NCBI GenBank assembly: GCA_027312165.1
Contig: DAICXN010000002.1
Span: forward strand, 1 to 64,000
Length of the DNA stretch: 64,000 nucleotides
Origin: Candidatus Saccharimonadota bacterium
GTDB taxonomy: Bacteria; Patescibacteriota; Saccharimonadia; Saccharimonadales; Saccharimonadaceae
Direction of reading: 5' to 3'
The notes under the pieces are model-generated. The model did not search any database. It saw nothing but the letters and a program-made list of their open reading frames with translations, and was not told the origin of the DNA. The position numbers and the translations under genes are program-made. Numbering within the stretch: the first letter of the stretch is position 1; the number at the start of each line of letters is the position of its first letter. This document shows, one piece after another, positions 38,139 to 42,651 of this stretch.

Positions 38139-38232
38139 TGCCACAAGTATAGCCCAACAACAGCCACCTTGTCAATTTTACGCCGAAAGCCGAAGGTGCC
38201 CTGTAACCTCGCTATAGTGCTATAATTTGTCC

Positions 38233-38823
38233 ATGAAAAGCGAACGGCCAATAGTGTTAGTCGATATGGACGGAGTGCTTGCTGATTTTGATGGTGCCAC
38301 TGAAACATTTCTTCGAGATAGCCATCCTCATATTCCAATCATGGAGCGTAAAAACTTTTACTTTCGCGACGACTACCCGGACCCAGAGCATGAAGCGATA
38401 ATAAGCAAGCTGCACTCATCTCAAGGCTTTTTCTTAAATCTGCCGCCTATTAAGGGTGCGCTGGAGGGACTAGATAAAGTCGAGGAACTTGGCTATGAGG
38501 CACGCATTTGCTCGTCGCCACTTAGCAAAAACCTCTGGTGCGTCCAAGAAAAGCGCGAATGGCTACGGGTTCACCGAGGAAGACTGATGGCCGAAAGAGC
38601 CATTATTGACTCCAGCAAAGAAAACTATGACGGAATTGCCCTGGTCGACGATCGACCGGTTGTCCAAAATGCTGACATAGCATCCTGGAGTCACGTCGTG
38701 TTCGATCAGCCATATAACCGACACGTGGATGCGGATTTGCGCATCCAAGGCTGGGACGATCCAAACCTGGAATACGTACTTACAGAGTGCCTTGCCAGAT
38801 ACCGTCGTCGATCAGCAACCTAG
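38233..38823 (+). CDS. 5'(3')-deoxyribonucleotidase-like HAD phosphatase
   Basis: IVLVDMDGVLADFDG HAD motif, LVDDRPVVQ; TATAAT 6 nt before ATG. Confidence 0.8.
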   Translation: MKSERPIVLVDMDGVLADFDGATETFLRDSHPHIPIMERKNFYFRDDYPDPEHEAIISKLHSSQGFFLNLPPIKGALEGLDKVEELGYEARICSSPLSKNLWCVQEKREWLRVHRGRLMAERAIIDSSKENYDGIALVDDRPVVQNADIASWSHVVFDQPYNRHVDADLRIQGWDDPNLEYVLTECLARYRRRSAT

Positions 38824-38870: not shown

Positions 38871-38947
38871 GGCAGCGTAGCTCAGTTGGTTAGAGCGTAG
38901 GACTCATAAGCCTAAGGTCACAAGTTCAATCCTTGTCGCTGCTACCA
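38871..38947 (+). tRNA. tRNA-Met(CAT), elongator-like, CCA encoded
   Basis: GGCAGCG...GGACTCATAAGCC...CAAGTTCAATCCTTG-CGCTGCT-A-CCA. Confidence 0.93.
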
Positions 38948-39514: not shown

Positions 39515-40246
39515 ATGGACCTCGCTCTAATCTCATCATTTGCAATTATCGTCTTCTCCGGACTGATACACGCTAGCTTTCAATTGAGTGTCAGCGTCCT
39601 GACTCTCCTTAGTGGCCACTCACTTGGGCGAAAAACAGCCCACCGAAAGGTTATGAGATTGATGAACAGCTTTATTACCGGAGTGCTGGTTTTGACACTG
39701 TTGCTAATTTCGGCTTTCGCCTACTATATGACCGTGTTTATCAGACACTCTGCAACCACCGAACAGCTTGTCGCAGCTATAGTTTGCGGGCTACTTGCGG
39801 GACTGGGCCTAGCGACGTGGGCTTTTTACTACCGTAAAGGTGAAGGTACGGCCCTCTGGCTACCCCGGAATATGGCGCGCTACCTGAGCAGCCGAACTAA
39901 GGCCACCAAAAATAGCGCCGAAGCATTTGGACTGGGTGCCGCTAGCGTAGTGGCTGAGCTAGTCTTCGTGCTGGCGCCGATGTTGGCAGCGGCATTGGCT
40001 ATCGTGACGCTACCGGGAGTCTGGTGGCAAATCGGCGGCATAATTACCTATACCGTCATCTCATTGACCTCCCTACTGGCCGTTTTTGTGCTGGTCGGCG
40101 GCGGACACCGCATCAGCAGGTTACAAGCCTGGCGAGAAAAGAATAAACGATTCTTGCAATTTGTTGGTGGCGGAAGCCTACTCATCCTCGCCGCTTACAT
40201 CTTTGTCGATCGGCTAATCGGGATTAGTCTATATGGAGCGTTTTAA
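39515..40246 (+). CDS. polytopic membrane protein, unknown function
   Basis: About 6 TM helices; stop overlaps next start (TAATG). Confidence 0.6.
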   Translation: MDLALISSFAIIVFSGLIHASFQLSVSVLTLLSGHSLGRKTAHRKVMRLMNSFITGVLVLTLLLISAFAYYMTVFIRHSATTEQLVAAIVCGLLAGLGLATWAFYYRKGEGTALWLPRNMARYLSSRTKATKNSAEAFGLGAASVVAELVFVLAPMLAAALAIVTLPGVWWQIGGIITYTVISLTSLLAVFVLVGGGHRISRLQAWREKNKRFLQFVGGGSLLILAAYIFVDRLIGISLYGAF

Positions 40247-40530
40247 TGAGTCAGAGAATTGATGTAATAAAAGCCCGCGGCAAGAGGCCGAGCGAGGAAT
40301 TTAACCCAGGCAAGCTCAAGCAAAGCATCATCGCCGCCTGCCTAAGTCTGCGCGCACCCGAAGGTCAGGCCGAAGAGATCGCTCAAGCAGTCGAAAAAGG
40401 TGTCCTAGCCTGGTGCGAGGGCAAGTCAGAGATCACGAGCGACGACATCCGGCGAGTCGGAGCGGCCATCCTTCAGAAACACCACACGGAAGCGGCATAT
40501 CTATACAAACAACAACTAACGGTACTATAA
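40246..40530 (+). CDS. stand-alone ATP-cone domain protein
   Basis: IDVIKARGKRPSEEFNPGKLKQSIIAACLSL...ITSDDIRRVGAAILQKHHTEAAYLYKQ. Confidence 0.75.
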   Translation: MSQRIDVIKARGKRPSEEFNPGKLKQSIIAACLSLRAPEGQAEEIAQAVEKGVLAWCEGKSEITSDDIRRVGAAILQKHHTEAAYLYKQQLTVL

Positions 40531-40539
40531 GGGGCAATA

Positions 40540-41913
40540 ATGGCACAGAAACCAACATTTGACTACGACATCATCATTATTGGTAGCGGTGCTGGCGGCA
40601 GTCCAGCGGCTTCGATAGCTGCTCGCGCCGGCAAGAGCGTCGCCGTTATCGAAAAAGGTGAATTTGGCGGCGAATCACCCAACTGGGGTGAGATACCAGT
40701 TGGCGCCATGCTACACGCCGCCCACATCTACGACACCGCCAAGCAAAGTGCTGCTTTTGGCCTAAGAACCGCTACTGTTGGATACAACTATCCCTCACTA
40801 CTGTCTTGGCGTGACACGACCATCAAGCGCACCGGCGCTGCAGGCAACCGCCGCTACTACGAAAAACAAGGCATCAGTGCCTTTAGCGGTGCAGCCCACT
40901 TCCTTAGCCCCAACGAAATTAGCGTGAATCGCCGCCACTTATCGGCACGTAAATTCCTGATTGCTACCGGATCAGAGTGGCTCATACCAGAGATTCCGGG
41001 TATCGCCGACACCCCCTACCACACCCCAAGGACCATCTTAAATACCACTCGGCCACCGAAGTCCCTGTTTATAATCGGCTCAGGCTCAACTGCCACTGAA
41101 CTCGCCTGCCTGATGTCAATTTTCGGCACCAAAGTCTATCTATCCGATCCAGCATCGAGAATTTTGCCAGAATACGACAGCGACGTTTCCGAGCTATTGA
41201 GTGACCAATTTCAAAAGCATCGTGGTATGACTATCTTGACCCAAACAAAGGTAGTAGCACTACAGAAAGATGGCATGTACAAGCGTGTTACCTACAGCCG
41301 ATCAGGTACAGAACGAACCGTCAAGGTAGACGAGGTACTGATTGCTGATGATAGAGCACCGGCTACTGACTTGGGGCTTGAAAATGCAGGAGTCAAATAC
41401 AACAGCCACGGCGTAGTGGTTGACGCCCACCTGCAAACATCCGCCAGGCACATCTTCGCAGCCGGCTCCTGCGTTCACCCCGGAACTCCAACTCATGAAA
41501 TTTTAATGCAAAGCCGAGTTGCCGCCCTCAACCTGATGCACAACAAATTCACAGCCGTTGACACCCACTTGCCTCTTCAGGTCACACGTACCCATCCTGG
41601 AGTTGCCAGGGTCGGCCTGTCGGAGGATGACTGCCTCAGGAGAGACTTGAGAGTGAAGGTTGCAACCGCCCCTTTGACACTCACACCCCGAAGCAACATC
41701 ACCGATCAGCGAGTGGGCTTTGTTAAGCTAGTTGCCGATAAAAAAGGCGTGTTGATTGGAGCGACAATTATTGCCCCCCATGCTAGCGAGATGATCCATG
41801 AATTAGCTCTAGCTATAAAGCACGGCATGACCGCCAGGGACATATTCTCAACCCCTCACGAGTTCTCTTCATGGTCGGAAGCTATAAGAGTTGCAGCCAG
41901 TAAGCTTCTCTAG
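40540..41913 (+). CDS. pyridine nucleotide-disulfide oxidoreductase-fold flavoprotein lacking the CxxxxC site
   Basis: IIIGSGAGGSPAA FAD motif, IIGSGSTATELA NAD(P) motif, GGESPNWGE in place of GGxCxNxGC. Confidence 0.85.
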   Translation: MAQKPTFDYDIIIIGSGAGGSPAASIAARAGKSVAVIEKGEFGGESPNWGEIPVGAMLHAAHIYDTAKQSAAFGLRTATVGYNYPSLLSWRDTTIKRTGAAGNRRYYEKQGISAFSGAAHFLSPNEISVNRRHLSARKFLIATGSEWLIPEIPGIADTPYHTPRTILNTTRPPKSLFIIGSGSTATELACLMSIFGTKVYLSDPASRILPEYDSDVSELLSDQFQKHRGMTILTQTKVVALQKDGMYKRVTYSRSGTERTVKVDEVLIADDRAPATDLGLENAGVKYNSHGVVVDAHLQTSARHIFAAGSCVHPGTPTHEILMQSRVAALNLMHNKFTAVDTHLPLQVTRTHPGVARVGLSEDDCLRRDLRVKVATAPLTLTPRSNITDQRVGFVKLVADKKGVLIGATIIAPHASEMIHELALAIKHGMTARDIFSTPHEFSSWSEAIRVAASKLL

Positions 41914-41943: not shown

Positions 41944-42019
41944 GGGGGTGTAGCTCAGCGGTCAGAGCAGCGGGCTCATAACCTGTTGGTCGCTGGTTCA
42001 ATCCCAGCCACCCCCACCA
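41944..42019 (+). tRNA. tRNA(CAT), candidate tRNA-Ile2 (lysidine-modified) or Met; CCA encoded
   Basis: GGGGGTG...GGGCTCATAACC..GTTGGTCGCTGGTTCAATCCCAGC-CACCCCC-A-CCA. Confidence 0.93.
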
Positions 42020-42574: not shown

Positions 42575-42651
42575 CGCGGGGTAGAGCAGTCCGGTAGCTC
42601 GTTTGGCTCATAACCAAAAGGTCGTAGGTTCAAATCCTACCCCCGCAACCA
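42575..42651 (+). tRNA. initiator tRNA-fMet(CAT), CCA encoded
   Basis: C1-A72 mismatch (CGCGGGG...CCCCGCA-A-CCA), GGCTCATAACC anticodon region. Confidence 0.96.

Follow-up and report, generated by a model that had tools for sequence, protein, structure and literature searches.

The operon at positions 39515-41913 of the window (the whole 64,000-nucleotide stretch of Candidatus Saccharimonadota DNA that was analysed) probably descends from a transmembrane thiol-electron relay, has lost the thiols and is now a membrane/flavoprotein/ATP-cone module; its present function, together with complex formation and the order of electron flow, we infer. The genes are homologous to the parts of such a relay, they have stayed linked, they have lost their cysteines in concert, and they are held under purifying selection. 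The three genes are tightly coupled, by a TAATG overlap and then a 9-bp gap, as the first-pass annotation had described, all three open reading frames are intact, and its reading of the locus as a membrane module is borne out. The features are as follows, all on the + strand.

39515..40246, +, membrane protein gene, intact open reading frame, 243 aa
39584..39586, +, Leu24, where outer families have the first relay cysteine, in INPC (DsbD precursor Cys182)
39965..39967, +, Phe151, where outer families have the second relay cysteine, in ELPCTGAP (DsbD precursor Cys304)
40244..40248, +, TAATG stop/start overlap of the membrane protein and ATP-cone genes, read from the sequence
40246..40530, +, stand-alone ATP-cone gene, intact open reading frame, 94 aa; PF03477 E 2.6e-7
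40531-40539, +, 9-bp gap from ATP-cone to flavoprotein gene, with AAGGGG just 5' of the flavoprotein start
40540..41913, +, flavoprotein gene (lipoamide dehydrogenase/MerA type), 457 aa, with substitutions at both redox cysteines
40666..40692, +, GGESPNWGE, the one-time GGxCxxxxC redox site, residues 43-51; Ser46 and Glu51 replace both cysteines
40702..40704, +, Gly55, conserved lysine position 3' of the redox site (all 7 genus members have Gly; all 20 Cys-bearing relatives have Lys)
41092..41094, +, Ala185, third glycine position of the NAD(P) GxGxxG motif (all 7 genus members have Ala)
41467..41469, +, Ser310, FAD-binding aspartate position of the AxGD motif (all 7 genus members have Ser, Gly or Asn; all 20 Cys-bearing relatives have Asp)
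41944..42019, +, tRNA-Met, directly 3' of the flavoprotein gene, marking the operon end

Three tRNA genes with a CAT anticodon, this one included, lie within a 4-kb stretch that contains the operon (38871-38947, 41944-42019 and 42575-42651, all +), and a deoxyribonucleotidase-like protein (NT5C, 5e-21) is encoded at 38227-38823 (+), near the ATP-cone gene.

By profile comparison, the membrane protein is recognisable as a cysteine-pair-less relative of the CcdA/DsbD-type proteins of the LysE superfamily, a kinship that the first-pass annotation had missed. It compares with Cys-bearing CcdA-like relatives at E 3.7e-45, and a family profile that includes Cys-bearing relatives aligns with the transmembrane domain of E. 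coli DsbD at an hhalign E of 3e-6; for the profile of the Cys-bearing family the values are 37.6 bits and E 1.1e-8. Membrane proteins of the outer Saccharibacterial families carry Cys22 in INPCAIG and Cys146 in ELPCTGAP and align over the transmembrane domain with the DsbD/CcdA carriers (TC 5.A.1), their two cysteines falling on E. coli DsbD Cys182 and Cys304 (precursor numbering), whereas Leu24 and Phe151 occupy these sites in the window protein, and both of the TM1/TM4 redox cysteines are absent in every examined locus of the window's family. The outer-family proteins match SfLAP above its cut-off (L079, 9.5e-10) and, more weakly, DsbD (6e-6) and ArsG (2e-7), and GAP (SfLAP) and DsbD have both been placed in the LysE superfamily (PMC4608589). 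The AlphaFold model of the window protein (pLDDT 92.9) exhibits helix breaks at residues 21-24 and 147-149, adjoining both former cysteine sites. A Foldseek search of this model against the PDB gave no match at E<0.001, so the kinship with CcdA/DsbD rests on sequence profiles, and a PDB profile search with the outer-family membrane proteins found nothing. Elsewhere in Patescibacteria, CcdA-like relatives carry fused CxxC thioredoxin/glutaredoxin-like domains at the N terminus (L202, L203, L204 and L209), lie near TrxB (L218), or adjoin VKOR and a thioredoxin-like lipoprotein (L216 and L217), the neighbours having been recognised by reading their sequences. The alignment with the DsbD cysteines, the thioredoxin-like fusions and the TrxB/VKOR neighbours together provide good evidence that the Cys-bearing membrane family would serve as a thiol conduit.

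The flavoprotein is similar over its full length to lipoamide dehydrogenase and MerA. Pyr_redox_2 (6e-48) and Pyr_redox_dim (6e-22) are both found above cut-off, and the comparison with PDB 2eq6 gives E 5e-65; the scores against TIGR02053 (mercuric reductase MerA, 316 bits, cut-off 454) and TIGR01350 (305 bits) lie below the cut-offs, too low for membership in MerA. The FAD, NAD(P) and dimerisation domains are all present, though single motif residues are gone. Where flavoprotein disulfide reductases have GGxCxxxxC the window protein reads GGESPNWGE, in agreement with the original claims that cysteine is absent at both positions and that classical disulfide chemistry is beyond this protein. 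The accompanying statement that the FAD and NAD(P) motifs are intact holds for the first FAD motif (GSGAGG) but not for the third glycine of the NAD(P) motif, which reads GSGSTA, nor for the FAD aspartate of the second FAD motif, which reads AAGS. In contrast to lipoamide dehydrogenase and MerA, then, the window flavoprotein lacks both redox cysteines and has phenylalanine for the catalytic histidine, and its genus has also lost the lysine, an NAD(P) glycine and the FAD aspartate. The reported alteration of the C-terminal HPT..E region is real (TPHEFSSWSE, residues 438-447); Phe or Tyr already stands in place of the histidine in 20/20 Cys-bearing relatives, so its loss is older than the cysteine loss, and a tie between the two was rejected.

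Across the family outside the g3/g9 branch, 57/62 sequences have Ser at the first cysteine site together with Asp/Glu at the second, a figure that describes a type and is no test, as the group was chosen by Asp/Glu at the second site; within the g3/g9 branch, Asp or Asn occupies the second site in 24/24 flavoproteins. The lysine is kept in 43/55 and the FAD aspartate in 47/55 of the rest of the family outside the window's genus.

The ATP-cone protein scores 31.5 bits against Pfam PF03477 (cut-off 25.8) over positions 3-72 of 88, which upholds its description as a stand-alone ATP-cone. Two further cones are encoded in the same genome; the open frames that contain them are 802 and 165 aa long, which is compatible with an RNR subunit and NrdR. 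The window cone shares the PF03477 domain with the cones of NrdR and ribonucleotide reductase, but it stands alone, its partners in the operon being a membrane protein and a flavoprotein instead of a zinc ribbon or RNR, and its motif is degraded. The N-terminal motif reads IKA where 13/14 Cys-bearing relatives have VKR, which weakens the proposal that the module is nucleotide-responsive; VKR is altered in 4/6 members of the window's genus, and the motif is absent in most of the g3/g9 branch, where the operon is retained. Together with the changes at the lysine, the NAD(P) glycine and the FAD aspartate, the cone changes suggest that the window represents a late stage in which flavin chemistry is doubtful, the flavoprotein of this genus probably having been reduced further, towards a pseudoenzyme.

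The three-gene order exceeds chance expectation and is not a local oddity. Among non-redundant Saccharibacterial loci, 104/114 have the membrane gene directly 5' of the flavoprotein gene and on the same strand, and about half of the ten exceptions are contig edges. Strong flavoprotein orthologues are present in the window's own genome and in 7/8 other genomes of the genus, the exception being a genome that is 76% complete (G003), and 79/198 genomes of the order have flavoprotein matches at 1e-60. The neighbourhood search that the first-pass annotation had proposed thus finds the linkage kept across related genomes.

A fourth gene, c5, lies 5' of the membrane gene in outer Saccharibacteria. The c5 protein is composed of two helices and an extracytoplasmic domain in which HWH, HEH and four cysteines are invariant, and it may possibly bind metal; it has no confident Pfam match, and Foldseek against the PDB gave no match at E<0.001. 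One example is encoded at L092:9628-10512 (-), with homologues in alignment A4. Searching the order located c5 in 21/198 genomes and in none of the window's family, and wherever the upstream region is covered c5 accompanies each membrane cysteine pair (8/8 tree rows; 12/12 in the locus table). A Ca2+-type P-type ATPase gene is divergent to c5 in outer Saccharibacteria. A P-ATPase-like gene, c5, the CcdA-like protein and the cone occur together again, with no flavoprotein, in the distant f113 lineage; the linkage of the cone to the cassette is thus wider than its linkage to the flavoprotein. In this lineage (L212-L215) a pterin-4a-carbinolamine dehydratase-like small protein, read by eye, is encoded 3' of the cone.

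The ancestral form, extant in the outer Saccharibacterial families, is predicted to work as a relay in which NAD(P)H reduces the FAD of the flavoprotein, the FAD passes electrons to the flavoprotein CxxxxC pair, this pair passes them to the two membrane cysteines of the CcdA/DsbD-like protein, and the latter would deliver them to the extracytoplasmic His/Cys protein c5. The ATP-cone protein, encoded between the two, presumably regulates electron flow, judging from gene content. The window's family has lost c5 and both membrane cysteines, and its flavoprotein cysteines would then have been replaced, mostly by Ser and Asp/Glu. The remaining trio most likely still assembles into a complex at the membrane, where the dimeric flavoprotein would partner the LysE-fold protein in docking or sensing. 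In most of the family the flavoprotein may also have kept its reaction with NADH and transfer electrons to acceptors other than thiols, like the cysteine-less lipoamide dehydrogenase (LPD) homologues.

The losses were placed on a tree of 62 Saccharibacterial flavoproteins and six outgroups, all of which have both cysteines. At least five independent losses of the flavoprotein cysteines are found, with an additional loss within one genus (L264 versus L104). Both pairs are lacking in 44 of the 56 tree rows that have both genes and both are present in nine; three rows have the flavoprotein pair only, and none has the membrane pair only. The correlation is strong by count, although a phylogenetic sign test, with too few independent contrasts for significance, gives p 0.25-0.5. 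Flavoprotein cysteines without membrane cysteines are seen at eight loci (L104, L105, L164, L235, L236, L238, L244 and L268), the last five of them beyond the 56 tree rows, so that some thiol function apart from the relay must be at work, or must have been at work for a while.

Intermediate states survive. In L265 the HWH of c5 has become NWQ, the first membrane cysteine Tyr and the first flavoprotein cysteine Gly, while all of these residues are kept in the sister loci L092 and L093. In L261 c5 lacks HWH, the membrane protein lacks its second cysteine, and the flavoprotein orthologue (L261:3810-4841 (-), 343 aa) has neither an FAD domain nor cofactor motifs, its open frame being kept in a c5-membrane-cone operon. 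The order of loss appears to have been membrane cysteines and c5 first and flavoprotein cysteines afterwards. The L261 operon adjoins an apparent separate canonical CcdA and a thioredoxin-like lipoprotein. No Pfam thioredoxin match was found in the window's own genome (G000; 665 kb, 35 contigs, 89.5% complete), some genomes of its family have a strong match to a thioredoxin of ~110 aa, and the outer families have mostly weaker, longer matches; thioredoxin distribution was rejected as the cause of the cysteine loss, there being no clean split between families.

The Cys-less flavoprotein is under strong purifying selection: wherever dS can be measured, omega is 0.01-0.08, a result that covers the window's genus and several genera related to it; those values that rest on dS above 2 are rough. 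The cysteine loss is family-wide, which answers the concern raised in the first-pass annotation that it might be strain-specific decay. Neutral decay, with the operon a relic on its way out after the loss of c5, would account for the progressive loss of motifs, for the g3/g9 branch with its degenerate cone and an omega that is higher, at 0.24 in one pair of flavoproteins, and for the broken flavoprotein frame of genome G008, but it is highly improbable given the low omega across the rest of the family, open reading frames intact in nearly all genomes, and operon order retained in many genera. The broken frame in G008, a relative within the genus (L012/L021), is either a pseudogene or an assembly error. 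Instead, we favour, with moderate confidence, a retained membrane complex with a docking or sensing flavoprotein. That the relay became a non-redox complex, structural or sensing nucleotides or NADH, and did so repeatedly in Patescibacteria, is a tentative but quite possible extension, for which L261 is an example, as the operon persisted there after the whole FAD domain was lost.

The main rival for most of the family is that the Cys-less flavoprotein still works as an NAD(P)H oxidoreductase, its FAD handing electrons directly to a small acceptor at the membrane (a quinone, oxygen or some other), where the LysE-fold protein anchors it. Yeast Irc15p and LpdA (Rv3303c) of M. tuberculosis are LPD homologues without a working cysteine pair that are inactive on disulfides; Irc15p takes electrons from NADH and donates them to menadione and ferricyanide but to no disulfides, and LpdA likewise reduces quinones (PMC6296175). 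Two further observations speak for an active enzyme: most of the family outside the window's genus has conserved the Lys, GxGxxG and GD motifs, and the residue at the second cysteine site, which is flavin-facing in this fold, is acidic. We nevertheless consider an active enzyme somewhat doubtful, and a poor fit for the window's genus, where the lysine, the third NAD(P) glycine and the FAD aspartate are missing in 7/7, and for L261, whose orthologue without an FAD domain is still in the operon, a misfit for a conserved enzyme function. A similar degree of doubt attaches to the first-pass reading of a nucleotide-responsive redox sensor, in which the cone binds ATP/dATP and switches the flavoprotein or the membrane protein. 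Cones sense ATP/dATP in RNR and NrdR, and the score of the window cone and the VKR of its Cys-bearing relatives are in keeping with this, but the IKA of the window, the altered motif in its genus and the absence of the motif from most of the g3/g9 branch despite operon retention are not; this reading overlaps with descent from a thiol relay and the two are not mutually exclusive. It is unlikely that the membrane protein is now a LysE-superfamily transporter exporting a metal, an amino acid or a lipid, with the cone and flavoprotein as cytoplasmic regulators. The superfamily consists mostly of exporters, DsbD being the electron-carrying exception (PMC4608589), a Ca2+-type P-type ATPase adjoins the ancestral loci in two distant lineages, and within the family the membrane protein shows high conservation at many non-Cys residues; against this, the membrane protein has no identified conserved metal or substrate site, and the window has no transporter gene or substrate link beside the operon.

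The window operon adds a dedicated LPD/MerA-type flavoprotein and an ATP-cone to a DsbD/CcdA-like protein, and to our knowledge no described DsbD/CcdA system has both in its operon. Like Irc15p and LpdA, the window flavoprotein is an LPD homologue without the cysteine pair, but a membrane partner or ATP-cone operon has been described for neither of them, and the Saccharibacterial cysteine loss appears to be one step in the co-degeneration of a relay. In the open-access literature we found no paper tying DsbD/CcdA or a pyridine nucleotide-disulfide oxidoreductase to Saccharibacteria in such a relay, and no description of the putative four-gene relay of outer Saccharibacteria. The analysis points to this relay and to c5 as an uncharacterised extracytoplasmic His/Cys protein family, and suggests that in a tiny epibiont-type bacterium an electron-passing device was put to other use after losing its thiols. 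The loci form a natural stepwise series, from an apparently working relay with cysteines in both proteins and c5, through intermediates, to a selected Cys-free module, which makes it testable what such proteins do without redox chemistry, including in TM7i, whose complete genome record carries the flavoprotein form GGDSPNWGD (L134).
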